NCBI RefSeq assembly: GCF_000025005.1
Contig: NC_013525.1
Coordinates: forward strand, 1,204,501-1,268,500
Direction of reading: 5' to 3'
From: Thermobaculum terrenum ATCC BAA-798
GTDB lineage: Bacteria > Chloroflexota > Chloroflexia > Thermobaculales > Thermobaculaceae
DNA length: 64,000 bases
Shown here one piece after another: positions 40,632 through 56,528 of this stretch (its first letter is position 1; every line of letters starts with the position of its first letter). The notes beneath the pieces are model-generated. The model saw nothing but the letters and a program-made list of their open reading frames with translations, searched no databases and was not told the DNA's origin. A program made the translations under genes and the position numbers.

Positions 40632-42794
40632 AGGTTCATCACTCGTGACGAGTTCGGGAGCTTCGACGTGGACGGGTACTGGCTTGACCTACTTAGGCTA
40701 GAGGGCGAGATGCTCAGCAGGCAGGTGAGGCAAGTGCGAGATCTGGACGAACTCCTGCGCCTGTTTCGCTGGCACGTGCGCGGGGTTGTAGTGTAGGACC
40801 CGCGGTGCCAGCTACGTCCAACGTAGCAACCACTATGTGGCCGTGCCGGAGGGAGATCCCGCATTCCCTCACCTGCCGATGAAGGTTTCGCTAGTTAGAC
40901 CCGATGGCTCCTCGCTGTTCACAGGTAGCGGGAAGATCCCAGGTACATCCGTACCCTCGAGGGGCAGCGCCAAATGCGATGCCTACCTGTGGGCCAAGAT
41001 TCGATACCTGGACACCGGCAGATGCGACCCAATCGAGCTAGCTTTTTACCTTGACGCCTACTGGCTCACCCAGCCACAGATAGAATTGCAACAGTCTCTT
41101 CTTTGATCTATCGCCCTGGGATGATGAGACCCTGATCGACGATCCGAACCAGCCCCTGGGGACCGACTTCCGCACGCTGCAGGCCATCCTACTCTCCGCC
41201 TACAAGGGTACCAGTAGACGGATGGTGGCGATCCATGGCTTCGTACCCTGGGCCTTCAAGTACACCTCCTATGGGCAAGCGGGCGGGACGCATGAGCCAA
41301 TCGCCTCAGAGTGGAGATTCGTGCAGGAGGCTTCGGCCTATAACGCCCATCTAGACGCGGATGCTGAGGGGCTGGACGGCATGGCCAACCCCTCGGTGTT
41401 CGCCCACAACCCCACGACAGATTTTTACCCCCAGAACCCCAAACCCACCGTTGAGAGTTTAATCCCAACCTGTCACAGCGCATGTCGCCCGCCCTCGTGT
41501 ACACGCGTGTCACTCGCACGCCAAACGGCTTCTTCATCGCTGGTGATTCTGGAGCGGGCTACCTGAATCCCAGGATGCTCCAGGAGCCACTAGAGTTCTC
41601 TGGGCTGCCCTCGGGCATGCTGGCATGGACGGAGCATTGCGAGGCCTATTTCCGTCGGTGGAACCTCTTAATCATAGGGTTTATCATAGATGGCTTCGCC
41701 CCAGTCCTGAACGCCGAAGGCAAGCGCGTCTACTCCCAGTTTTCGCCCAACGGCTTCGCCGCTCAGAAGATCGAGCCCATGGTATGGTGGGCAACACTCC
41801 TTACATCAGAATGGGTATGGATCTCCCGCGTGCGTTCTCTCGTGAGGCCGCCGCCGAGCTCGAGTCATCGCTAGAGGGGGACACCTCACGATTCTAGAGA
41901 GCCCCACGTGGCACAAGTAGGTAGTCGATAGAACACACTCCGACCTACCCAACGCCGTTGTGGAGTTCGTAGACGCCTACACCCTCTATGGACTGCTCGA
42001 GCTGTACCTGCAATAGGTGATCATCCAGCCAGTAAGGACCATTCTCTCCCTTGGCAGGACGATGCCCGCGGTGCTGGATGTTACTACTTACTCCCAGCAG
42101 AGGCTGGAAGTTACCTTGTCGCTGGAGGTGCCAGAAGGCTGGTTGGCTTCCCCAATCCAGACCTCTTTCACCCTAGACACAGGAGAGACCAGGAGGATAT
42201 CTATAGACGTATCCGTGCCTGAGTGGGCAGATCTTGACACCTACATGCTAGCCGTCAAGCTCCAGTACAGCGGAACATCGCGCGAGCGTAGCTTCGAGGT
42301 GACCGTTGTGGAGCGCTCCTACGCCTATGTCGATGAAGTGTACGTGATCCTCGGAGAGACCAACCAGCCGAACGGGCTGGTCCAGATAGAGCAGGAGGAT
42401 GGGCAAACAGCGGCAGACACAGTCTACGGGCGGTAATGCCGCAAGCCGCTGTTCACAAGGTGGGAATACTCCTACATCTACTTACAAGTGGACGACACGT
42501 TCATGTACGACGAAAGGGGCACTACCGTCTACGCCACGGTGGAGTACTTCGACGCCCCCTGCCAGTCGTTCGGCATCCACTACGACTCCAACAACCCGAC
42601 CGGAGCCTTAGGTGGGGCGTACACCGACGCGGGGACGATCACCACCATGGGCAAGCAACGAGTGGAGGGTGCACACCTTCGAGCTTGCAGACGCACGCTT
42701 TGCCAAACGCCAGAACGGAGGATCGGACCTGCGGATCTACACGTGGGACGAGGTGTGCTTCTCCAGAGTAACGGTATCTCGCTCGCGTGCATGA
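40632..42794 (+). pseudogene. GxGYxYP-family glycan hydrolase remnant
   Basis: Fragments of one long protein follow each other in different frames: DVDGYWLDLLRLEGEMLSRQ, FRWHVRGVVV then TAG where the family has Tyr, then DPRVPATSNVATT in another frame, SPWDDETLIDDPNQPLGTDF, VAIHGFVPWAFKYTSYGQ, and GDSGAGYLNPRML, the GxGYxYP-type signature. A NEW3-like beta-domain (42017-42436) and a carbohydrate-binding-like end (YIYLQVDDTFMYDE, EWRVHTFELADARFAKR) complete it. At least one nonsense codon (about 40794) and six or more frame changes make it non-functional. The original was probably a secreted polysaccharide-degrading enzyme. Its N-terminus and signal peptide are missing. Confidence 0.75.
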
Positions 42795-43031
42795 GTGGCC
42801 GTGGTGGTATCCCACGTGACAGACGGCAGCACTGATGCTATACTGCCACCGATCCGAAGGAATGTGCAGGATGATGTAGCGCATAGGATGGGTGATTATA
42901 TTTGTGTGCTTGTAGCTGGCCGCCTGTGGGCGAGGCAATATATCTCCCATGCCCACCGCCGCGCCGGTCGCCACAGCACCGAGCGCGGGCCTGCCCACCC
43001 CCACCATCACGCCCAGGAGACGCCCACGCCC

Positions 43032-43736
43032 ATGAGCACCCCGACAGGGACGATCACCAACCCGGTGTACGATAGCAACTTCCCGGATCCGTTCGTCCTC
43101 AAAGAGGAAGATCTTACTATGCCTTCTCAACCACCTTGGGAGGCAAGCACTACCCCACTCTTATATCAAAGGATCTCGTGCACTGGAAAGAGGGCCCGGA
43201 TGCGATGCCCGAGATGGCCGAGTGGACGGCTGGTAACACCCTGTACCTCATGTACTACACGGCGGAGTGGATCGAGGTCGGCCTCCAGTGTATCGGCATA
43301 GCGGAGAGCAGCAAGTCGCTGGGACCTTATAGAGATCGTTCTAAGAGGCTGTTCATCTGCCAGTAGGAGGAGGGCGGCTCGATAGACGCCGATCCCTTCC
43401 GCGACGATGACGGCACGATCTACCTGTACTGGAAGAACGACGGCAACAGGCTAGGCCTGAACACCTACGGGTACGCCACCTGCCAGAGCCCGCTCGGGCC
43501 CTGCAAGAAGGCGCCGGAGAACCCATACTGCGGTCGAAGTGCGAGGCACAAGGTCCCGGCCACAACTCCATCACGGTCGATAGGCACGGCAACCTCTGGT
43601 TTGTCTACCACGCCTGGCACCCCGACACGATAGGCTCAGTAGAACCCGGACGCGTGCTCTGGATCGACGGGCTCGTTGTAGAGCGTGGCAAGCCGAAGGT
43701 CATGGGCCCTACCTGTGGCCCCAGCCGATGCACTAG
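43032..43736 (+). pseudogene. GH43-type glycosidase remnant
   Basis: After a Thr/Pro linker, TNPVYDSNFPDPFVLKEE starts a five-blade GH43-like domain with the DPF motif (catalytic Asp). The frame then shifts: YYAFSTTLGGKHYPTLISKD, LVHWKEGPDAMPE, AEWTAGNTLYLMYYTAEW, CIGIAESSKSLGPY, a TAG at 43363-43365, [20 protein letters not shown], then another frame with [20 protein letters not shown] and RVLWIDGLVVERGKPKV. It ends PQPMH at 43736. About 40 residues around the expected VWAPDV region are missing. It follows the GxGYxYP remnant, so the two were probably one glycan-degradation locus. Confidence 0.75.
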
Positions 43737-44141
43737 GCGTTCTCCATCGGATCTTCCTGCACGATCCTGCCCGATTCCAGCTCGTACCTATAGCCGAGGG
43801 GCATCCTCGCGACGTATACCTGTATGTGTCGCTTGCGGAGCCGCTCGAGGATGATATCGAGCAGCTTGCCGGTCCACAATAACTGCTGACGCCCTGCCCT
43901 CCGCAAGCGCCCTTATGAGGGCCATCAGCCCCGGGCGTGTGTCGCTCGTCGGGGGTCCGGAATCCGTAAACACGAGCTCTTCGCTGGTGTCGTATCCCAG
44001 GTCCACCGCCAGCTCCTCGCACATCTCCCACTGCCTCTCCGGAGTGGTCCTGTCGCGATCGGACCCTACAGGCGTGCGCGTATAGATGGCCGCCATCTGG
44101 CCGGTGCCCACCCTGTTCGTGCTGTCGCTTCCTGTGCTCAT
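43733..44141 (-). pseudogene. Serine recombinase (resolvase) remnant
   Basis: The frame reads AAIYTRTPVGSDRDRTTPER, CEELAVDLGYDTSEELVFTD and RPGLMALIRALAEGRASAVI, the resolvase N-terminal layout (YxRxS, ERQ, LGY, DRPGL). The catalytic Ser position carries Pro in this copy (YTRTP). A frame change near 43865 leads to LLDIILERLRKRHIQVYVAR and a stop at 43733. The large C-terminal part is absent. It is the only mobility gene in the GC-rich region, and its stop overlaps the end of the GH43 remnant. Confidence 0.65.
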
Positions 44142-44293
44142 ACTATCGATTGTAGTCCCTGCACCCGTGTATGTCTAATTGACCGCCGCCAGATATCTCT
44201 CAGATCATCGAATCCCTGCACAACAGCTGTCCGCCTTATCACATTAGAGTTGCTGACTTATTTCTTAATCTAGACATACCGAAGAAGGTAGAA

Positions 44294-44644
44294 TTACTGC
44301 GGTCCTTGCTGGGGCTTAGCCACGGGGTTTCGCCCTAGTGCTGTGTCAGGCCGCTTGGTACTTAGCTGAGACATACGTAGAGATGCCAGCTGCAGGATTA
44401 GATCCTCCGTTGACGGCGCATATCCTTCGTATTGGCCCGTAGCTAGTTCTACAGTTGGTATGACCTGGACCACACGGTGACCATCCTCTTCAAGCCGCTT
44501 CTTGTTCCTTTGGAAAGCCGGGTTATTCCACATAATCTGGTTCATAGCCGGAGCAAAGACTATAGGTCTGGGATAACTTAGGATAGCCGTAGACAACAGG
44601 TCATCTGCGATGCCATTGGCCGCCTTAGCGATAATACCTGGATG
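44294..44644 (-). pseudogene. C-terminal half of a LanD/PPC-DC-type flavoprotein
   Basis: The reading frame gives IIAKAANGIADDLLSTAILS, PRPIVFAPAMNQIMW and NKKRLEEDGHRVV, which match the second half of the homo-oligomeric flavin Cys decarboxylase family: phosphopantothenoylcysteine decarboxylase and the RiPP enzymes LanD/EpiD. The PAMN motif is the substrate-recognition clamp of that family. The N-terminal half, with the active-site His and FMN loop, is missing; in its place, in another frame, is the glycosyltransferase fragment. The tail after GYAPSTEDL differs from standard CoaC, so which enzyme it was cannot be settled. It is not functional as it stands. Confidence 0.7.
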
Positions 44645-45521
44645 GCAACTGTAGGGGTTCCAGAGGCGACTGCTAGCTGCATGGGGTCTGAATCGTTGCC
44701 TATGAACAAGTCCACAGAAGCCAACAAGGCCGCAGTTACCCTTATGCTACACGCTCCCGCCAGACTGGTCTTAGGCATATTAGTACGCATCATCTTAATA
44801 ACGCGCGTGTGCAGGTCGGCTTCCTCCGCATCTCCTAACAGCAACAGATGCCCACCTACCCTGTGATATAACAGGTCCGCCAAAGCCGCAAATCTCTCCT
44901 CTGGCCACCTTCTGGCATGGCTGATAGGACCAGATCCAGGGTGCATAGCTATGAGAGGTCTTGTAGGTCCAATTATGCCCAGCAGCGCTCTGGCCTGCTG
45001 GACCTCGACATCGGTGACGGGCACTACTAGCCGCCTGCTTTCCACCTTCGCGCCCAACGCCTCCACTAAGGCGATGAAGTAATCTGCCTCGTGCTTGGCG
45101 CCGTACCCATGATCCTCTACCCTCACATTGAGAAAGTCTTGGCGTCCGTGGACCGTACGATGTGGCGAAGCTTGAATGTCGTGATAGGTTCGAAGAGGTG
45201 AGCAAACACAATCACGGCATCGTATCCGCGGCCTCTCAGGACGGTTCTCAGAGGAGGGGTGGAGTCTTTCCCACTTTCCACCTTGCCATCCTCGGCATTG
45301 ACGAGATACCTCTCTAGCTCTATGATGTCGTCCAGCACTTCCCAGCTGGCAAGCAAAGGAGCAGCACGCGAAGATGCCAGCAGATCTATACGGGCTCTTG
45401 GGTACGACTGGCGTAAAGCCACTAGAGCTGGGGTAGTAAGCAGGAGGGTGCCCCTGGCGTAGATCTGGACGGCTAAGACACGAGCCTCTGGCGGTAGGAT
45501 GATCTGCTTGTGACCATTCAT
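44644..45521 (-). pseudogene. GT9 (heptosyltransferase-like) glycosyltransferase remnant
   Basis: The ATG at 45521 has GGGGG upstream. The first part reads LAVQIYARGTLLLTTPALVA and LLASSRAAPLLASWEVLDDI, an ADP-heptose-LPS-type GT9 N-domain. Near 45140 one base is lost or gained: the frame shifts to FLNVRVEDHGYGAKHEADYF. The C-domain has IAMHPGSGPISHARRWPEER and FIGNDSDPMQLAVASGTPTV, but stops there and runs into the flavoprotein fragment by deletion. About 60-80 C-terminal residues are missing. It lies directly downstream of the lasso exporter genes. Confidence 0.75.
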
Positions 45522-45595
45522 CTTATCCCCCAAGTGTAATACCATATCATGAACCACCTAAGTATATAAACAGGCTTCCTAACCCTCACTTCTCC

Positions 45596-47280
45596 CTACC
45601 TGTACCTGTCAGCCTGGAGCTGGAAGAGGTAGGCATAGAGGCCTCCCCTTGCAAGCAGCTCCTGGTGTGTCCCCACCTCCACCACCCTGCCTCCATCCAG
45701 CACCACTATCTGGTGGGCTCATCCAGGATCACCACCGCCCCATCCCGCACGTAACCTCTGGCCAGTGCCACCCTCTGCCACTGCCCCCATGACAGCTCCA
45801 CCCCTCCCTCAAACCTCCTGGTGAGCTCCGTCTCGTACCCTTGTGGCAGCCTTTCTGCTATCTCCTCTGCCCCTGCCCACACCGCTGCCCTCGCTATCTG
45901 CTCTGGTGGCACCCTCTCTGGATCTCCCCCTCCCACAGCTATGTTCTCTCCTAGGGTGAGGGCCAAGCGGGCAAAGTCCTGGTAGACTACTGCTATCCTC
46001 CCCCGCAGGTCCTCCAGGTCGTACTCCTGTATGGGCACCCCATCCAGCAGGATCTCTCCCTCTATGGGGTCATACATGCGGGTGAGGAGTTTGACCAGAG
46101 TACTCTTGCCCGCCCCGTTGTGCCCCACCAGCGCTGTCACCTTGCCTGCTGGAAGCTCAAAGCTTACTCCCCAGAGCACACAGGTCGTGCTCTCTGGGTA
46201 GCGGAAGCTTACCCCTCTGAGCTCTATCCCTTCCCTGAGGCGCCCTGGGACCGGCAGCCCCTTGCCTGGCTCGGGCAGCTTGATCCTCGGCTCGGCATCG
46301 TTCAGCAGCGCAAAGAAGTCCCACGTGTAGAGGAGTGTCTGGTAAGCCCTCCTGAAGGAGTCGGGCAGCAGATGCAGCAGCCTCTGGGCCTGCACTATGC
46401 TGTTGACATACAGCCCCACGTCGCCGATCGTCAGCCTGCCACTGCCCGCCTGCGCGGCCACGTACCACAACCCTCCACCCAATGCCAGCGCGTAGAGGAC
46501 GTTGAGCGCGACCGAGAGCCCCATGTGCCTCAGGCGGATGCGCGTCATCTCCCTCAAAGCTGCCCTGGAGCGGTCCCGAAAGCGCCCCAGGAAGAAGCCT
46601 CCCAGGCCGAACACCCTCACCTCCTTGGCACTCCCTGGCTCGGTGACCACCCGCAGGCAGTAGTCCATCTCCCGTGCCGCCCGCGAGTGCATGGCCATGG
46701 CCCAGTACAGCAGCTTCGTCGAGCGCTCCTCCAGCACCATGTGGGGCACGGCGAGCGCTGCCAGGACGACGGGCAACAGCGGGTGCAGGGAGGCCAGGAG
46801 CAGCAGCAGTCCCACGAGGGTGATCAGCGAGCCCAGGACAGCCCGAAAATCATAGATCATCCTGGGCAGCAGCCCGGGCATCTCCTGCGTCATCCGCAGC
46901 CTGTCGTGGAATGCGGGCCGCTCCGCCTCCACGAGGTCCACCAGACGCATCCCCGCCCCCATCAGCCGCAGATCGATCTCCGCTATGGCCCTGGCCTCCA
47001 GCCAGGCCGAGACGGCACGCTGTACGGGGTCCAGCACCGCGGGCAGGGCGAGCGTGACCGCGTACAGCAGGGCTGCCAGCAGCGCAGCCCCGTACTGTGC
47101 CGCTCCCAAGCGGTCGAGCACCAGCTTGAGGAGCCAGGTCCCCATCACAGGCAGGACGCCGGAGGCCAGCACGAGCAGGAGATAGACCGCTGCCGTGGCA
47201 GGCGCCGGTACCACCAGCAGGGCGATGGCACGCCAGAGATCGCGCAGCACAGTGGCCGTGCCTCTCAGATGCTGGTGCAT
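45596..47280 (-). pseudogene. ABC exporter half-transporter with internal deletion (lasso exporter, second gene)
   Basis: From the ATG at 47280 (GAGGGG upstream) this codes a type-I exporter half: membrane domain with about six helices (15-300), Walker A GHNGAGKSTLVKLLTR, signature VELSWGQWQRVALARGYV (SWGQ in place of SGGQ) and Walker [10 protein letters not shown]. Directly after DEPT, about 50 codons (D-loop and H-loop His) are deleted and the frame shifts; the remaining end [20 protein letters not shown] runs to a stop at 45596. The ATPase cannot be complete. Its partner gene is just upstream and the pair probably served as the lasso-peptide exporter. Confidence 0.82.
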
Positions 47281-47298
47281 CGATCCCCTCAGACTCAA

Positions 47299-49127
47299 CT
47301 ACTCCTCCTCGGGCTCGTCCTCGTACCGCGAGGCCTGCAAGGTGTACAGCCTGGCATACTCCCCTCCCAGCTCCATCAGCTCCTCGTGAGTCCCCTCCTC
47401 CACCACCCTGCCCCACCCAGGTACACTATCCTGTCGGCCATCCTGACAGTGCTCAGCCTGTGGCTGATCAGTATCGTCATCCTCCCCCTGGTCAATTCTG
47501 CAAACCTCTGGTACACCTCGTGCTCCGTCTGCACGTCCAGCGAGGCCGTAGGCTCATCCAGCACCAGCACCTGCGCCTCCCGCATGCATACCCTGGATAG
47601 CGCCACCCTCTGCCACTCCCCTCCAGACAGCTCCCTACCCCCAAACTCTCTGCCCAGCACCGTCTCCAGCCCCTGGGGCAGCTTCCCTATCACCTCCAAG
47701 CCTCCCCCCTGTCTGGCTGCCCCAAGCACCCTCTCTTCATCCCACAGCCTGTCCACATCCCCCAATCCTATGTTCTCCCGAGCCGTCAGCTCGTAGCGCA
47801 TGTAGTCCTGGAAGATCACGCTGAACTCCTCTCGCAGCTGCCCTGGATCGTACTGCCGCAGGTCCACCCCATCGAGTAGGATCTGTCCCTTGGTGGGATC
47901 GTAGAATCTCAGCAGCAGCTTGATGATGGTGGTCTTGCCAGCACCGTTATGGCCCACCAGTGCCAGGCACTTCCCAGGGCGTATCTGGAGGGACACACCC
48001 CGCAGGACGGGCTCTCCCCCTGGGTAGGCAAACCACACCTCCCGAAACTCTATCCCCTGCCTGATGGGGCGGGGGACCGAATGGGGTCTTGGGGGTAGGG
48101 GCAGGTCAGGGAGAGCCTCCAGCACCCTCTCCAGGCTAGGCAGGTATACAAGCTGCATCGGCAGGAAGCCCAGGCTCAGGGCGATGGACTGTAGCTCCGC
48201 ATACAAGGCCGTGGCAGCACCTCCGTAGAGAACGACATCGCCGAGCGACAGGCGCCCACCTGCTACCTGCCACACCAGGTAGACATAGAACAGGCCGATG
48301 ACGCCCATCGAGATCATCCCCGCCAGCGACACCCTCAGGGCAAGCCTCCGACGCTCCCTGTCGATCTGCCCAACGGAGCGCTGGAAGATATCCTGATACA
48401 GCCGCAGCAGAAAGCCTCCTAGCCCGTACAGACGCACGTCCTTGGCGGGCTCGGGAGACAGCGTCAGCTCGCGATAGTACCACAACCTGCGGGACTCTGG
48501 CAGCACGAAGTACAGGTGGGAGACCACTCGGAAGAGGTAGTCCCAGTACCTCCTCATGAAAGGTACCTCCGCCAGCATCAGCAGCAGCGGCACCAGGGGA
48601 TGGAGTCCCATGAGCACCAGGCAGAGACCCAGGGCGGTCAGCACCGATAGGCAAGCCTGTGCGCCCTCCACCATCAGGTCCACACCAGCCGATTGCGCCC
48701 GCTCTCGGATCGCGCGCAGGTCGTCCGCCAGCCTGGGGTCCTCAAAGCGCTCCAACCCCTGCCAGCGGTTGACGGCCTCGATTACTCTCCCCGTGAGGTA
48801 TATGGTCACCCTGTCGCTGGCGAGGCCCCGCAGGACCTCCAGCATGAACTGCAGCAGCGGTACGAGGGAGAAGGCTGCCGCCGCAAGCCCGATCAAGGCC
48901 CACAGCGGCAGGTCTGTGAGCATACTGCTCGACGCTCTGCCCAGATGCGCATCCAGGACTATCCTGTCCACCACCGCCTTGGACAGCACCAACTGGACGG
49001 GGGACATGGCCGCCTGCACCAGCAGCAGCAACAGGATGCTGCCCACCAGCGAGGGGCTGGCCTGCCAGGTGAGCCCCGCGGCCAAAGATAACAGCCTCAA
49101 CGTCGAGCGGATCCTCTCCCTAGTCAT
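47299..49127 (-). pseudogene. ABC exporter half-transporter, C-terminal frameshift (lasso exporter, first gene)
   Basis: From the ATG at 49127 the main frame gives about 583 residues and stops at 47376. It has about six membrane helices (15-310), Walker A GHNGAGKTTIIKLL, signature RELSGGEWQRVALSRV, Walker B VLVLDEPTASLD and the H-loop ILISHRLSTVRMADR, so its ATP site is complete. After RIVYLGG the frame differs by one base: the family-typical end GRVVEEGTHEELMELGGEYA is found in the next frame and stops at 47299. The change is at a G-rich run (47411-47424) and may be a real mutation or a sequencing error. The protein could still be active without the last 25 residues. Members of this pair export lasso or related peptides. 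Confidence 0.75.
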
Positions 49128-49195
49128 AATCAGCAAGTAGAGTTAACAAGAACTACACGCCCGCATACCTGCTGTACTATAAACCTCCGGGCGTT

Positions 49196-49223
49196 CCCAG
49201 CGGCTCTAGTGACAGCCGCCGGG
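49196..49223 (-). promoter_or_regulatory. GC-rich hairpin between lasso precursor and exporter genes
   Basis: Arms 49196-49205 and 49214-49223 pair at 9 of 10 positions around an 8-base loop. It sits 47 bases past the precursor stop and before the exporter start, with no T-run. It may protect the precursor mRNA end, as seen for other RiPP operons, or attenuate read-through. Confidence 0.4.
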
Positions 49224-49269
49224 CTGAGTGGGATCGTGCTGTCTAGCGGCATCCTACTCTGTTAGCAGA

Positions 49270-49443
49270 CTAGCAGCTCGGCGTACTTCCTTGCAGGCTA
49301 CCAGAATCTGCTATCCAATTGCCTCCGCTTTTGACAAGCTCTAGGGCTCGGCCAAGGTAAACGAGTTGTGGCCGTACGTAAGAACCTCGATCTTGTATTT
49401 GCTCGGTCCTTGCGTACTCCTTACAAACTTCGTTGTCCTTCAT
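49270..49443 (-). CDS. Lasso peptide precursor (A), putative
   Basis: The 57-residue peptide starts at the ATG at 49443, with AGGAGG 6 bases upstream. The leader has the lasso recognition motif YxxPxLxxxG: Y22, P25, L27, G31 (YVRPQLVYLG). The canonical spacing puts the leader end after Lys38, with Val37 where Thr is usual. The core would be Ser39 to Cys57: SGGNWIADSGSLQGSTPSC, with Asp8 forming an 8-residue macrolactam ring with Ser1. If cleavage is one residue later, Gly1 and Asp7 would form a 7-residue ring. The core ends in a lone Cys. It lies 28 bases after the cyclase gene on the same strand. The call rests on the leader motif and the B1-B2-C genes beside it; no homologue is recalled. 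Confidence 0.82.
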   Translation of the reverse strand: MKDNEVCKEYARTEQIQDRGSYVRPQLVYLGRALELVKSGGNWIADSGSLQGSTPSC

Positions 49444-49471
49444 AGTTGCCTCCTTTCTACCTGATTCAATT

Positions 49472-51451
49472 TCAGATGACGCGCACCAAGTCCATTTGAC
49501 GCACGTCCCACCCAGGCTCATGTGAACGCGTACGCATCTGACGTAACCATAACTCTGTTGCCAGCAGAGAGCATATTTGCGGCAAGAAATCCCGCATCCC
49601 AATTCGCCACGATTTAAGGGCCCGTTCCAATCCATCCTGCTCCACGTAACCACGCTCGACGACCTCCCAAGACCTATTATTCAATAGCTTGGGTAACTCG
49701 TGCCGCAGGCCCAACGCTAGAGTGCGACCAAAGTTCACCTTGTCCCTTCGTTCCCGAATAGCCTCAGGTAGGATACTACGCATCGCCTCCCTCAAGATAA
49801 GCTTTGTCACAATAGTGCCATCAGCATCGAACCCTCTCTTCCATTCAGTCGGAATCATAAGGGCCAGTTCAACGAAGCGTCTGTCCATGAAGGGCATGCG
49901 AGCTTCGCAGCCCTTTGGCATAAATACATAATTATCTAACCAGAGGCTAAAGTTATTCTGGCGCAACCATACGAGGTGTTGGGCCCGAGACGGTAGAGGG
50001 GTATAATGCTCAGGGAACTCCTTCCATACTCTAGCGAATATTCCCGACTTGATACACTGCTGGACAGATAGCCAAGGGGGAATGCCTGGAATATACCACT
50101 CGGTTTCAGGATTCCATCGCCTGTTGTGTCCCCTGATATTGATACTAAACCGCCAAAACAGAGGCGGCACCATTGGTAATATTGCATACCGCAGGAGTAA
50201 GGTGGTTACATTCAAGTTGGGCCAACGGGATTCAGACCAGATTCCATGTATGAGCTCCTTGATCTTTAGCTGCCTCAGGTAATCACCTAGAAAGTAAGAG
50301 GTACCTTGCATTAGCTCGTCACCCCCATACCCAAAGACCAACACGTTACAACCTGAGCGCCAAGCTACATCAGCATACACCTGCATCTCAGCACGTACTA
50401 AATACGCCCCGAAGGGTTCGTCGGGTTCTGGAAAGGTTCCCTCCACCAAGTCGCGCATATACCACAGGTCATCCCCGGGAAACTCTATCACGTCGAGGCC
50501 ATACATTTTGATAGCAGCCCTTCGGAAGGAGGACTCGTCCGCAACTGTGCCCGTCTTGTAGGTCTCAGATACCGGCCTGAAACCTTTACAGGGAAGGCCA
50601 GACTCACGTTGCAACAGCACGGCCATGCACACTATGCTTGATGAATCTAGCCCACCGCTAAACGTGGGCATTACCGCAGCACAAGAACGGAATTGGCTCC
50701 TTACAGCCTCCTTGAAAGTAGCACGCACCCGCTCAATTACCTCTGAGCGAGGGCTTGAGTACAGCACTGGGAGCTCTTCGGGCCTCCAGTAACGAGTTAT
50801 GCGCTGCCGACCATTAATATCAGTCACGATCGCATGACCCGGTAAGAGTCTTCTTATGCTGGTATAGGGAGTCAATGAGGTATGGTGTGGCAGAGTAGAC
50901 TGGAGACATAAATTGGCAAGGATATAAGTATCGTCGATCTCATCAGAGATGCCTGGGACCTGCAGGATCTGCTTGATGGTTGATGCCACGACAAAACGCT
51001 TGGTGTTTAGCGTGTAGAACAGGGGACGAGTGGCGAGATGGTCTACAGCACAGAACATGCTCTTGGCTCGATCGTCCCAAATGATGAGTGCAAAGTTACC
51101 CACTAATTTGCTAACGCAATGCTCTCCCCAACGCTGATAGACCATTGCCGCCAGCCGGCAGTCGGAGATGCTGCTTTGCTGAGACCTAACTGCCAACAGG
51201 TCGAACAACTCATCTCGGTTATCTAGTCGACCGTCCATGACCACCCAGGAGCGTCCCCCATTGAAGCTCAGTGGTTGGTCATCCTCGAAGTCCTCGCATG
51301 TTATCTTCAACTCCGCGCAGCCAACCGCCACCTGCCCCAAATGCTTTGCTGCAGCGCTTCCGCACCGGTGCATCCCACTGGCAACGATGCGCTTTACCAG
51401 GTCACTTGGCACGGGATCGGTGAAGCTAATAACTCCTACAATACCGCTCAT
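49472..51451 (-). CDS. Lasso peptide cyclase (C), asparagine-synthase-like
   Basis: The ATG at 51451 is chosen because asparagine-synthase-like proteins start MxGIxG and GAGG lies 8 bases upstream; the frame opens 8 codons earlier. The 659-residue protein has a degenerate glutaminase domain (1-200) with Ser2 in MSGIVGV instead of the catalytic Cys, so it cannot use glutamine. The synthetase domain has the PP-loop TFSGGLDSSSIVCMAVL and FGYGGDELM, used to adenylate the side-chain carboxylate of the ring Asp. It then closes the macrolactam with the core N-terminus. It has no frame damage, unlike many neighbours. It sits between the B2 and precursor genes. Confidence 0.87.
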   Translation of the reverse strand: MSGIVGVISFTDPVPSDLVKRIVASGMHRCGSAAAKHLGQVAVGCAELKITCEDFEDDQPLSFNGGRSWVVMDGRLDNRDELFDLLAVRSQQSSISDCRLAAMVYQRWGEHCVSKLVGNFALIIWDDRAKSMFCAVDHLATRPLFYTLNTKRFVVASTIKQILQVPGISDEIDDTYILANLCLQSTLPHHTSLTPYTSIRRLLPGHAIVTDINGRQRITRYWRPEELPVLYSSPRSEVIERVRATFKEAVRSQFRSCAAVMPTFSGGLDSSSIVCMAVLLQRESGLPCKGFRPVSETYKTGTVADESSFRRAAIKMYGLDVIEFPGDDLWYMRDLVEGTFPEPDEPFGAYLVRAEMQVYADVAWRSGCNVLVFGYGGDELMQGTSYFLGDYLRQLKIKELIHGIWSESRWPNLNVTTLLLRYAILPMVPPLFWRFSINIRGHNRRWNPETEWYIPGIPPWLSVQQCIKSGIFARVWKEFPEHYTPLPSRAQHLVWLRQNNFSLWLDNYVFMPKGCEARMPFMDRRFVELALMIPTEWKRGFDADGTIVTKLILREAMRSILPEAIRERRDKVNFGRTLALGLRHELPKLLNNRSWEVVERGYVEQDGLERALKSWRIGMRDFLPQICSLLATELWLRQMRTRSHEPGWDVRQMDLVRVI

Positions 51452-51521
51452 TGTTCCAACCTCAACACCTGCCACAACCTAAGATTTGCCCATTATGACT
51501 CATGCATCCCATGTCTATAAA

Positions 51522-51905
51522 TCACAAGCGATAGATCACTAAGAAACCTTGCTTCAATAAAGGTGTGTCGTTAACTACACGATCGTCAACCTCTACCCAA
51601 GCATGGAACAGGAGCGGTGGTACCCGTGTTGCACCTATACAGAGATCGGAACTTATCCCCCTCCGACGCAGCATAGAACACACCACAAAAGAGCGTTCCA
51701 GGCATTCGGTCCTCGCCGGCAGTAGACGAGCAGCGATGTTACAGATCCGAGTGATGTGCTCCACATATGCTGACCCATGCTGCTGGCTGGGAGAAGCTGG
51801 CTTGGGGAGATAATCCCGGAATGTCATCCAGCTACCACTTTTGACTAAGAGTTTGGCTCGGATCAACAGTAAGAATGCTCTAAGGAGATCTACAGCAGAT
51901 TTCAT
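51522..51905 (-). CDS. Lasso leader peptidase (B2), transglutaminase-like
   Basis: The 127-residue protein matches the lasso B2 (transglutaminase-like/BtrG-like cysteine protease) family by size and motifs: Cys in RTECLERSFVVCSMLRRRGI, His in LFHAWVEVDDRVVND, and the Asp following it, giving a Cys-His-Asp triad. It cuts the leader from the precursor once B1 delivers it. The ATG at 51905 follows the B1 stop by 15 bases, with AGGAG overlapping the end of B1. The separate B1 and B2 genes are the arrangement usual in Gram-positives and their relatives. Confidence 0.87.
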   Translation of the reverse strand: MKSAVDLLRAFLLLIRAKLLVKSGSWMTFRDYLPKPASPSQQHGSAYVEHITRICNIAARLLPARTECLERSFVVCSMLRRRGISSDLCIGATRVPPLLFHAWVEVDDRVVNDTPLLKQGFLVIYRL

Positions 51906-51920
51906 CGCTACAGATCACTC

Positions 51921-52256
51921 CTACTTTATAAAGGGAGCCACAAGGTTGTTATCTAGTAGTTCGGAAACGAACATGGCTATATCGTTGGTTGCGACTTCGG
52001 GCTCGATATGATAGGCCTCGACGAGGGCATCTACAGCGGCATTGACCGAACCGGACTGCATAAGTGCCTTCCAGGCGATAGCTGCGCTTTCGTCTAGGCC
52101 GTAGATATCGCCCGTCTCTGCGTTCATTACTATGACCTGCTGTAACTCATTTTCAAGCCATCGAATGCCGCTAGCGAGCGTCACGCGTAGCCCAACAAGA
52201 TCTGAGTAGGTCCCTACCTGCAGGTGGAGGAGTTTCTGCTTTCCCTTGGCTTCCAT
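51921..52256 (-). CDS. Lasso RiPP recognition element protein (B1), PqqD-like
   Basis: I choose the ATG at 52256 (GGAG upstream; 111 residues) because the PqqD-like fold starts only there; the frame is open up to 52451 with an unlikely N-terminus. The PqqD/RRE pattern is clear: VIVMNAETGDIYGLDESAAI, AWKALMQSGSVNAAVDALVE, and FVSELLDNNLVAP at the end. RRE proteins bind the YxxP part of the leader and hand it to the peptidase. It is the first gene of the lasso operon. A promoter is predicted about 40 bases upstream. Confidence 0.87.
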   Translation of the reverse strand: MEAKGKQKLLHLQVGTYSDLVGLRVTLASGIRWLENELQQVIVMNAETGDIYGLDESAAIAWKALMQSGSVNAAVDALVEAYHIEPEVATNDIAMFVSELLDNNLVAPFIK

Positions 52257-52301
52257 GACACCGCAACTCCACAGAAATGAGTAATCGTCTTCGTTTTTGT
52301 C

Positions 52302-52329
52302 ATCATAAAAAACCCCGAAGAGAATGCAA
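52302..52329 (-). promoter_or_regulatory. Predicted promoter of the lasso operon
   Basis: On the minus strand TTGCAT (52324-52329), a 16-base spacer and TATGAT (52302-52307) resemble a sigma-70 promoter. It supports the start of the B1 gene at 52256 rather than at 52451, because the longer frame would begin upstream of it. Consensus reading by eye. Confidence 0.45.
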
Positions 52330-52659
52330 GTTGATGCACTTAGAAGTCTGCAAACTCGAAAGAGCGGGGCTGGCTTACAGGCGGCAGATACTTGAGGACG
52401 TAAGTGCCTTGGGGGAGAGTGATACGCGTGGTCAGAGAGAAGGAGCACCACCGTTAGGGGGCTCTACCTGCGTGGGATCTTCTGCTTAAGGATCGAAGGG
52501 CCTGGATGAGTTCTGTTATTGACATAACCACAGTATATGTATTGTCGACATATGATGAGCAGTATCATGGGCAAGGGCGAAATGATAACAGGAGTATAGC
52601 AGAAAGGCTGGATGGTGTTATACTTCTGCCTGCACAGGTTCTTTTGAGAGGAGAATCAT
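52330..52659. other. Gap without a supported gene between lasso operon and VOC remnant
   Basis: Open frames here on both strands lack ribosome sites and recognisable motifs. The plus strand has TTGACA at 52516-52521 without a good -10. The stretch probably holds the regulatory region of the two divergent units. No operator palindrome is evident. Confidence 0.4.
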
Positions 52660-53318
52660 ATGGTCGGCAGGCTGATCACGAGGCTGGATCACGTCGTAGT
52701 TGCCGTGCGGGACCTGCAGAGGGCAATGGAGAAGTATCGCGAGAGGGGCTTTGATGTGCAACCTGGCGGCAGGCACACGGGCAGGGGGACGGAGAACGCG
52801 ATCATCCGACTGGGTCTGGAGCACATAGAGCTGATATCTCTGTATGACCGACGCGAAGCGGAGGAGGTGGGCATCGGGCGACGATCGCTGGTGGAGTACC
52901 TTGACAGGTGGGATGGTGGCATAGTTGACTGGGCCGTAGCAACCGACTGAATAGATGACGTCGCCGGCAGGTTCAGAGCAGCTAGTCAGTACTGCGATGG
53001 GCCTTTCGTGATGAGCAGGGAGCGTCCGGATGGTAGAGTGCTCTCCCGGCAATTACTCGTGCCTGCAGTACTCCCTGGAGAAAGCCCTGGCCTTTCGTAA
53101 TACAGTGGGACGTGCCGGACGAGGAGCGACTGAGCTGGGAGTCATCGAAGGATCATCCCAGCGGCGTGAGGAAGATAACTCGCCTGAGCATACTGGTACG
53201 TAATGGGGCCCTACGTCAGATGCTGGAGGAGTACGGCGAGGGTCCCGTGGGGCTAACTCTGGCAACTCCGAGCAGGCTAGTTCAGCTAAAGGAGTTTCCG
53301 GAGCGGGTGGAGCGTTGA
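52660..53318 (+). pseudogene. VOC/glyoxalase-like protein remnant
   Basis: The ATG at 52660 has AGGAG upstream. The first part reads RLDHVVVAVRDLQRAMEKYR and NAIIRLGLEHIELISLYDRR, the start of a VOC (glyoxalase_3-like) fold. A TGA at 52948-52950 interrupts it; the same frame goes on IDDVAGRFRAASQYCDGPFV and RERPDGRVLS, then shifts to WPFVIQWDVPDEERLSWESS and ends at 53318. Complete members have about 200-220 residues, which the joined parts would give. It is not functional unless these changes are sequencing errors. Confidence 0.7.
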
Positions 53319-53402
53319 AGAGTATTATGCTGGTACATTGGTGATCAGGCTGAGAAGTTGTCCGGAGGGTGAGAGTTCTTGGGGATTGCCGTTCTACGTA
53401 CC

Positions 53403-54602
53403 ATGCGGCTGAGCTACTGGTGGTGGTTTGCGGCGATTGGGTCATTCACGCCGTTCGTATCGTTGTACTGTCGTGACCTGGGGCTGAGCGGGATAGAGAT
53501 AGGCCTGCTGACGGCGATGACCGCCATGGGGACTGCGTTCCTGGCACCTATGTGGGCGCACTCGGCGACAAGTACGCGGTGCACAAACAGTTGCTGAGGA
53601 TGCTCTTGCTTGGGGGCAGCGCGGGAGCACTGCTGCTCTCGCGTGGGCATGAATTCCCCCCATACTGCTTGCCGTGGCGCTGCTCTCCGCGCGCGTGGCG
53701 CCGATAGCATCGTTTCTCGACTCGTACGCTGTGAGTATCAGCGAGAGGTATGGAGTGTCGTATGGGGCGATGAGGTTCTGGGGCTCGATAAACTATATCA
53801 TCACCCCATGGATCATTGGGCACTGGATGCGCGTGGAGGTGTCGCGGCTGTTCATCTACTGCTATGCTGCGTTCCTCCTGTTGACGATAGTATCTACCTG
53901 GGGGTTGCCGAGGCTCCGAGATCAGGCGGTGCACGCGATGTGGTCGAGCTTCCGACAGGTAGTGGGGCGGAAGCCGCTTGTGTGTTTCTTTTGTTAGCTT
54001 ACATGATCACGGTAGCGACGAGCACGATGTACTCCTTCTTCGGGATCTACATCCGGGATATCGAGGGAACAACTTCTCTGCTGGGCACTGCCTTCTCGCT
54101 CTCTGCTATAAGTGATATGCCAATCATCGCTTTCAGCGGCTTGCTGCTTCGCTGGCTGGGACCTAGGAAGCTCCTGCTAATAGCGGTTATCTCCTACGCA
54201 GTACGGCTAGGGGTTTACGGTTTCCTGCCTGATCCGAGGCGGGTAATTCTGGTTCAACTGATGCATGGGTTGTGCTCTGGGGGATATCTGTGTCCACGGG
54301 ACGCTAGCCCATCGCTGGTGGGGAGGGAGCTTGCGGCAACAGCCCAGGCAATGCTTGCGTCGGTGTCAATGGGCTTTGGGAGCATCATGGGCTCGATCGT
54401 TGGGGGTGCGCTGCTCGATATAGTAGGCACAGTGGGTATCTATAGGTTAGCATCTGGTGTCATGCTGCTGGCTCTAGTAGTGCTTTTGCTGAGCATGAGA
54501 CTGCTGTCCGAAGGTGATGTGGAGAAACCATCGCTCGTTACCGCTCAACTGCAGGAGAGCACGGTCCGGCCGGACAAGTTAGTTAGGCAACTGCCAACAT
54601 AA
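53403..54602 (+). pseudogene. MFS transporter remnant
   Basis: Pieces of one 12-helix transporter (about 400 residues) are spread over three frames: MRLSYWWWFAAIGSFTPFVS, LYCRDLGLSGIEIGLLTAMT, then LGDKYAVHKQLLRMLLLGG, then RVAPIASFLDSYAVSISERY, AMRFWGSINYIITPWIIGHW, and after another shift near 53990 TMYSFFGIYIRDIEGTTSLL to a stop at 54602. The DLGLSGIEIGLL and GDKY parts fit the MFS_1-like/nucleoside-permease group. At least three frame changes make it inactive. It follows the VOC remnant on the same strand. Confidence 0.75.
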
Positions 54603-54678
54603 CCCGAGGTGCTATTCTTACCATCAGGTAGGCAAAGAAACTCCTCATGCTCCACCCAATTCTAGGTGGCGATCCACA

Positions 54679-54966
54679 TCATGCCGCAACTATGGAGTGG
54701 CTAACCACTTGCAGGTGTGATCTCACTACCACAGGCGACGCATCCAGCGTGCGACCATGGCGAGCGCCACTACGTAGCCCATTGTCGTGAATATAGGCAC
54801 TAACGGATTGCTTGATTCTTCCGTGGTCGTTCCCGGAATTTAGCTGTTCGATCTGCACCACATAGGTCCACCAATCAGGATAACGGTCCACTCTGCTGAG
54901 TTCATCCCATACGCGCTCGATGGGTGCCTCAACTTGCCAGACGGATAAGAACAAGTAGTTGGCCAC
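54679..54966 (-). pseudogene. SRPBCC (polyketide cyclase-like) fragment
   Basis: A GTG at 54966 with AAGGAGG upstream starts YLFLSVWQVEAPIERVWDEL and DRYPDWWTYVVQIEQLNSGN, the first third of an SRPBCC lipid-binding fold. After that the similarity stops, and the frame ends after 95 residues; complete members have about 145-160. It seems truncated by deletion. It is divergent from the PhyH-type gene. Confidence 0.55.
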
Positions 54967-55000
54967 CAGCAGACCTCCTTGTTCAGGGTATCATGCTGAC

Positions 55001-55812
55001 ATGTATAGCGGACTCAAGAGTGAAGAGGGATATCTCTATTTGCCTGAATTCCTCGAGCGCGATCTGGTACTCGAGGCCAGGCACAACATCACCGAGAGGC
55101 TAGCTCAGGAGGGGTTGATCGATCCCAACTATCCTGCGGAGGAGGCTGTGGCCGCACCAGGACTTGATCTTGCGTTCAAGCCCGACCTCGCCCACGACAA
55201 CGAGCCACTGCACCGCCTGCTCTACAGTGGCAAGATGATGGAGTTCTATGAGAGCCTGCTTGGCGGTGAGGTGCGCCACTTCGACTTTACATGGATGAGG
55301 GCGATAGCCCCGGGCAGGTACACCAAACCTCACGGTGACATCGTATTTATGGGCCGCGGTACGCATGACCTGTATACGGCGTGGGTTCCTCTAGGAGATA
55401 TCCCCATACAGATGGAAGGATTGATGGTGCTCGAGGGCTCGCATCGGGTTGGTTACGTCAGGGAGGAGTACACTCAGAGGGATGTGGACTCATACTGCGA
55501 GAACATCCCCGAGCAAAGAGAGCGCGCTCTGCAAGGTGGCTGGGTGTGGGATGGCACCATATCAGACAACCCAGGGAACTGCGCGACCAGTTCGGAAGCA
55601 GGTGGCTGACTGCATGCGAATACCGGGCAGGTGACCTGCTGACCTTCACCTCGTATACTCTGCATGCCAGTCTGGACAACCATACCAACTGCATACGGCT
55701 CTCCTCGGACTCGCGTTACCAGCTTGCAAGCCTGCCAATCGACAAGCGCTGGATAGGAGAAGCCCCGGTAGGGCACGGGCCTGCGGCCAAGCGCGGACTG
55801 ATCTGCCGATAG
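55001..55812 (+). pseudogene. PhyH-family dioxygenase with single frameshift
   Basis: The ATG at 55001 starts MYSGLKSEEGYLYLPEFLER. The iron-ligand motif HxD is present in KPHGDIVFMG, and the distal His and Arg lie in SYTLHASLDNHTNCIRLSSD. The first frame ends at 55609, but near 55572, at CCC, one base seems missing: DNP should continue RELRDQFGSRWLTACEYRAG in the next frame, to a stop at 55812 (about 270 residues in all). A complete enzyme would hydroxylate a small molecule using Fe(II) and 2-oxoglutarate. This could be one real mutation or a read error. Confidence 0.75.
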
Positions 55813-56528
55813 GGTATCAGCCAGTGCTAAATACAACACTGTTCTTGGCGATCATCGTCTCTGTTGGTGTTTTGCTATGGACCATGCGCGATTATCGCTT
55901 CGCAGCACACAACTCCTAGACACCACGGACTGCACTGTAATGGAAGGTATTCCTGCGTTTCTCGACCAAGCACTATGCTCACATGAACAATATAAATTTA
56001 CATAACAATAAAATTGCTGTAGAGTAGTTGTGATTGGGGATAAGCTCGGAGCGACATGTTCACTCCCCAGGTCCAGTACCAATTTCGATCCGCGTACTCC
56101 GTCGTGGGAGATGGCATCTACAGATCACAGATAATTCACACGCGGGCCATAATTCGTATGAAAAGCTGTTGTATAGATGCCATAGGTCTGGATCGGCAGT
56201 GTTCATTGCCAAAGATTTGGATGGCTCCGATGGTCACGTTGTAGGTTTCGAGAGCACCGCATGCCAGATCCACTTCATGATAGACCCATAGACTTATATG
56301 GGTGAGCTTACGGTCGCCAGGGAAGCGGAGGACCATGGGGTCGTCGAAGACTGGCCAGGAAGGAGGCTTCTATACTCCTCTGGGACCCATCTGGGCTATA
56401 TAGAGGAAAGAGTGAAGCTCACAAAGGCGTTGACCGGCTTATAACCTCTGATAGGACACACAACAGCAAGCATCAGGAAGTGACTTCGCAGAAGGCACGT
56501 TCTGCGAAGTAATGTTCGTGTTGACAAG
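55813..56528. other. Decayed stretch without a recognisable gene
   Basis: Protein-like pieces appear on the plus strand (for example HNSYEKLLYRCHRSGSAVFI, stop at 56289-56291, then MGELTVAREAEDHGVVEDWP from 56298 to a stop at 56444), which together suggest a broken gene, but I do not recognise a family. A short inverted repeat, TCGCAGAA-GGCACG-TTCTGCGA (56488-56509), could be the end of the formyltransferase transcript on the minus strand. GC content drops to the host level near 56500. Confidence 0.35.

Follow-up and report, generated by a model that had tools for sequence, protein, structure and literature searches.

A probable minimal lasso peptide operon on chromosome 1 of Thermobaculum terrenum with an apparently matched Ile/Val pair in recognition element and leader

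Thermobaculum terrenum is a thermophilic bacterium of hot soil. The 64 kb window of its chromosome 1, by which we mean the whole stretch of DNA analysed here, contains four open genes on the minus strand amid genes that are mostly broken. This raises the question whether these four genes constitute a lasso peptide system and, if so, what distinguishes it from others of its kind. The first-pass annotation had described an intact lasso operon of B1, B2, C and a precursor in a decaying region, and the Pfam and NCBIfam matches as well as the coordinates agree with this description (Table 1). The genes are ordered B1-B2-C-A at 49270-52256, and all four frames are free of internal stops. Ribosome sites, likewise claimed for all four, are present, that of A being strong (aaaggagg) and those of B2, C and B1 weaker. 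Judged by these features, we regard the four genes as a real lasso operon that is probably functional.

Table 1. Features of the chromosome 1 locus (window coordinates)
Feature	Coordinates	Strand	Basis or remark
B1, RiPP recognition element (RRE; PqqD family), 111 aa	51921..52256	-	PF05402, 1.3e-15; predicted leader-binding
Ile51 of B1	52104..52106	-	stands where RREs almost always have the tyrosine with a reported contact to leader Thr(-2); alignments, contact from PMC10368454
B2, transglutaminase-like leader peptidase, 127 aa	51522..51905	-	Transglut_core3 (PF13471), 2.2e-30; NF033537
C, Asn-synthetase-like lasso macrolactam synthetase, 659 aa	49472..51451	-	Asn_synthase (PF00733), 2.3e-33
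A, lasso precursor, 57 aa	49270..49443	-	3' of C; aaaggagg ribosome site; leader motif
Leader recognition motif YVRPQLVYLG, Y22 to G31	49351..49380	-	Y-x2-P-x-L-x3-G, common to the phylum's other precursors
Val37, leader position -2 (normally Thr)	49333..49335	-	register Y+15, compare the 50 Thr(-2) locus-level pairs
Predicted core SGGNWIADSGSLQGSTPSC, ring Ser1-Asp8	49273..49329	-	core starts at Y+17, acid at core position 8
Asp8 codon, predicted ring acid	49306-49308	-	the acid has the same core position in tbi and further Chloroflexota precursors
ABC exporter half 1 (D1)	47376..49136	-	frame lost after the H-loop, at the last residues; neighbour, probably no dedicated lasso exporter
ABC exporter half 2 (D2), pseudogene	45706..47298	-	reading frame breaks off at Walker B; no stretch with D-loop and H-loop

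Protein families and the second lasso locus of the strain

The three Pfam models that the first-pass annotation had put forward for checking B2, B1 and C (PF13471, PF05402 and PF00733) all matched with the values given in Table 1. B2 also reached 82.7 bits against the NCBIfam model lasso_biosyn_B2 (NF033537), for which the cut-off is 33, and retains Cys68 and His101 in columns that are invariant in the alignment of its Chloroflexota relatives. The top NCBIfam model for C was lass_lactam_cya (NF033535; 7.5e-87), with a score under the curated cut-off of this model, which is specific to one lineage. When 13 Chloroflexota cyclases were aligned, Ser2 and the SGGLDSS motif (S265-S270) of C fell in invariant or nearly invariant columns. 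Ser2, noted earlier as the expected replacement of the glutaminase Cys, was confirmed and is present in all 13; judged from this alignment, it is expected and hence not distinctive. The AlphaFold model of B1 has a disordered N-terminus and pLDDT values of 86-97 per ten-residue block over residues 41-110. Its six top matches in the PDB were the lasso RREs TbiB1 (5V1U/5V1V) and TfuB1 (6JX3), with TM scores of 0.72-0.76 by target length and E values that were all above 0.001. Of the locally conserved residues B1 keeps 58% and B2 68%, in both cases fewer than most relatives and equal lowest, whereas the 73% of C is within the range of its relatives. Promoter and terminator scans at the locus gave no excess of sites over shuffled sequences.

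Strain YNP1 has two chromosomes of 2,026,947 and 1,074,634 bp (PMC3035366). Chromosome 2 encodes a protein whose 88 residues are all identical to TbiB1, so that the strain already figures in the literature as a lasso organism (TbiA/TbiB1, therbactin). The corresponding tbi locus (L003:1316-10604) has the order B1-B2-kinase-C-A-kinase-C-(TPR/methyltransferase-like)-A-ABC, and with the chromosome 1 operon Thermobaculum terrenum has a second lasso locus. Both have discrete B1 and B2 genes, precursors 3' of C, a YxxPxL leader and Asp8 for an 8-residue ring. The tbi locus differs in its two HPr-kinase-like genes, two cyclases, two precursors and ABC gene, where chromosome 1 has one C, one A and no kinase, and B1, B2 and C are 20-27% identical between the two loci.

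Two suggestions of the first-pass annotation did not stand. That the system may be undescribed in Chloroflexota is not supported, as B2 exceeds the cut-off in 25 of 400 Chloroflexota genomes and the other RRE of the strain is a solved structure. Nor is the terminal position of the precursor unusual: among the 59 lasso loci whose precursor was identified, A comes after C in 51 (tbi included), before it in four and on the other strand in four. The kind of operon, its gene order and its cyclase chemistry are thus all ordinary. A direct scan of genome contigs with the cyclase found no relatives. Our search of the open literature found no paper in which Thermobaculum and lasso peptides are named together, and none on the chromosome 1 operon, a weak result since the main papers appeared in subscription journals.

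Precursor register and the RRE residue facing leader position -2

The leader motif YxxPxLxxxG attributed to the precursor was found as Y22, P25, L27 and G31. The precursors of relatives share the leader Tyr, Thr at +15, a core start at +17 and an acid as residue 8 or 9 of the core; the predicted core of A in this register, SGGNWIADSGSLQGSTPSC, has a monoisotopic mass of 1822.78 Da in the linear and 1804.77 Da in the cyclised form ([M+H]+ 1805.78). When all six frames of the window (64 kb) were searched for Y..P.L...G together with an acid at the ring position, precursor A was the sole match; a phmmer comparison of the precursor with PDB sequences yielded chance matches only. Precursor A lacks the canonical Thr at leader -2 and has Val37 instead; this residue and Ser1 of the predicted core are both uncommon. 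Precursor-like ORFs with lasso-type leaders were also seen beside B1/C homologues elsewhere (L036:2953-3120 and L054:3383-3535). Their cores begin FRTPW and FQTPG, have no acid at ring positions 7-9 and are perhaps not lasso cores.

Thr(-2) was long held to be universal, until Ile(-2) was demonstrated for BsfA; by sequence, Ile or Val at this position has been seen in Acidobacteriaceae and Sphingomonadales, in every case with a kinase (PMC10368454). Because such exceptions are known, Val(-2) is no bar to lasso membership; it marks a variant compatible with it. The RRE is reported to form part of the S2 pocket of the peptidase, and Tyr33 of FusE is the suspected contact of Thr(-2) (PMC10368454). 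By residue-count numbering, we take Tyr33 to be the Tyr of GEYWQLN in the 6JX3 chain, which would place it in the YFGLD column. In our first alignment this column held Tyr in 13/13 other RREs and Ile51 in B1. The first-pass annotation had overlooked this Ile, the Val at leader -2 and the tbi locus in the same genome.

We then gathered lasso loci in Chloroflexota, in a second phylum and by a wider scan (a closer B2 query set gave 74 loci), and matched the RRE column with leader position -2 in 60 locus-level pairs. An aromatic residue accompanied Thr(-2) in 50 pairs and a non-aromatic residue accompanied Ile or Val in nine; non-aromatic/Thr did not occur, and the one aromatic/Ile pair, at L133, is ambiguous. 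At this locus (L133:1986-5734) two RREs, one with Tyr and one with Met in this column, flank one Ile(-2) precursor. Fisher's test gave P = 7e-10 with kinship ignored, for a count made once the Ile/Val pair of the window had already been seen. Loci with several precursors in one -2 state were counted once, and spurious precursor candidates were removed by hand at five loci (L036 Lys, L144 Ala, L133 Phe, L099 and L202 Cys). This joint change of RRE column and leader -2 argues that B1 and A were altered as a matched pair that decay alone would not readily produce.

On the B2 tree the Ile/Val(-2) class needs two changes, one for the window, on a long branch, and one for a group of eight; a single Ile/Val(-2) clade is not rejected (AU p 0.318). 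The covariation may thus rest on one or two evolutionary events. In BLAST comparisons Tyr-type loci come closer to C and B1 of the window than the Ile/Val group does, and B2 gives a mixed picture. Because of the placement of C and B1 we lean, short of proof, towards a switch in the window that would be independent of the other group. Tentatively, and with the balance somewhat against it, one may go further and propose a two-state lock (aromatic/Thr or aliphatic/Ile-Val), to which the chromosome 1 operon would have switched independently of the Acidobacteriota-type group and by which the two lasso systems in one cell would be partly separated.

Three known systems come nearest to this operon. 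The tbi locus has the RRE Tyr and Thr(-2), in contrast to Ile51 and Val(-2). Fusilassin (TfuB1/FusE, PDB 6JX3) shares the discrete RRE and the fold of B1, yet its Tyr33 is reported to engage Thr(-2) and the pair is again Tyr/Thr. The reported Ile/Val(-2) loci (Bradymonas sediminis bsf, Acidobacteriaceae, Sphingomonadales; PMC10368454) resemble the chromosome 1 operon in the aliphatic leader -2 and the discrete B1 and B2; however, they belong to other phyla and all carry a kinase or phosphotransferase, and BsfB1, unlike B1 of chromosome 1, retains the tyrosine. No kinase was present among the ORFs read at 44.5-56 kb of the window, that is, none of the HPr-kinase type found with phosphorylated lasso peptides. 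A kinase profile built from one tbi gene, which is narrow and may miss divergent kinases, matched 38 of the 49 loci with Thr(-2) but not one of the 10 with Ile or Val at this position. This is opposite to the published set, where Ile/Val(-2) loci carry kinases (PMC10368454). The Ile/Val(-2) group without a match to the profile comprises L242, L243, L246, L249, L250, L261, L265 and L202:15776-18418.

The island and its broken neighbours

The operon (51% G+C) lies in an island at window positions 40900-56300 with 51-65% G+C, compared to 44% in the surrounding stretch of chromosome 1. The claim that nearly all surrounding genes are broken was borne out and extends to both downstream ABC genes. 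Fragmented neighbours include Glyoxalase_3 (glyoxalase-like), MFS, a PhyH-like frame and GT9. On the minus strand at 43600-44200 there is a serine recombinase-like remnant with a possible link to the arrival of the island; this label and the PhyH-like one are our own reading, made without a Pfam match. No tRNA was found at the island.

Lesions of the reading frame number 0 in the 2.86 kb of lasso genes versus about 9 in 7.1 kb of neighbours (about 1.3 per kb). The Poisson P is about 0.03 against all neighbours and 0.09-0.2 against the ABC pair alone, a statistic that is suggestive only because the lesions were counted by eye from translations.

The ABC half-exporters directly downstream of the operon have 63-65% G+C and are both frameshifted, and an intact dedicated ABC exporter is absent beside the operon. 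We considered this pair as the lasso exporter and rejected it, as 10/10 loci with its relatives are without B1, B2 and C. Relatives of the pair, 52-56% identical in the case of D1, are present elsewhere in Chloroflexota and mostly occur as adjacent intact pairs. Since these relatives sit outside lasso loci, the ABC pair is probably a mere neighbour. A gene related to the pair is present on chromosome 2 (L087:9180-11045).

Reading of the locus

Taken together, the protein families, the fold of B1, the catalytic residues of B2 and C, the precursor register with its single six-frame match, the paired RRE/leader change and the intact frames favour a minimal intact B1-B2-C-A lasso operon making a 19-residue lasso. 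We regard this reading as likely, and infer from it the product, its threading, expression and function. B1 would bind the YxxPxL leader motif and complete the S2 pocket of the B2 peptidase, which would cleave the precursor after Lys38. C would then adenylate Asp8 and link it with the Ser1 amino group, closing the ring about the threaded tail; the resulting lasso of 19 residues would have a mass of 1804.77 Da. In the pocket, the Ile-Val pair would replace the usual contact of the RRE Tyr with Thr(-2), as a hydrophobic form of the same site. Export, if any, would need another transporter. Caution is called for by the broken neighbours, the low residue retention of B1 and B2, the uncommon Ser1 and Val(-2) and the promoter-like sites at chance level. 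Given that damage has reached almost every surrounding gene, the adjoining ABC pair included, the locus may itself be silent or in the course of being lost.

The latter point can be pressed further. The locus could be a dying one that makes no product, with enzymes not yet frameshifted, export lost and a precursor that has drifted from Thr(-2) to Val and from Gly1 to Ser. Damage to all neighbours and to both ABC genes would fit, as would the drift at locally conserved positions, where B1 and B2 are the most changed or tied for most, and intactness is only weakly significant against the lesion rate of the ABC pair. However, the RRE residue facing position -2 has been altered in step with the leader and the catalytic motifs are retained; moreover, the loss of the ABC genes need not matter, as their closest relatives are non-lasso exporters. 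We therefore hold a dying locus to be rather unlikely, though deserving of some weight.

Other departures concern the product. If cleavage occurred one residue later, the core would be GGNWIADSGSLQGSTPSC, with a 7-residue Gly1-Asp7 ring and a mass of 1717.74 Da. Gly is the commonest first core residue and 7-residue rings fall in the 7-9 range (PMC10368454), but the other precursors have a fixed core start at Y+17, which puts Ser39 first, Asp at 8 and Val at -2, and we consider the later start improbable. Slightly more improbable still is that homologues of B1, B2 and C make a non-lasso RiPP, such as an unthreaded macrolactam or a product of another modification. Threading cannot be read from a sequence and C stays under the cut-off of the lineage-specific cyclase model; against this, B2 exceeds the curated lasso B2 cut-off, and the precursor register and ring acid fit the lasso pattern.

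On the preferred reading of an intact minimal operon, the gene cluster adds an ordinary member to a family that is well studied, and its strain has already served in structural work on lasso peptides. What distinguishes the cluster is the Ile51/Val(-2) pair, in which the leader cleavage site and its recognition protein appear to have changed in a matching way. One thermophile would thus hold a Tyr/Thr system with solved RRE-leader structures together with an Ile/Val system, offering a test case for the role of the RRE in the S2 pocket: its proposed part in shaping the pocket could be tested by a two-residue swap. The pairing would also help to predict precursors at loci that may escape rules in which Thr(-2) is required.
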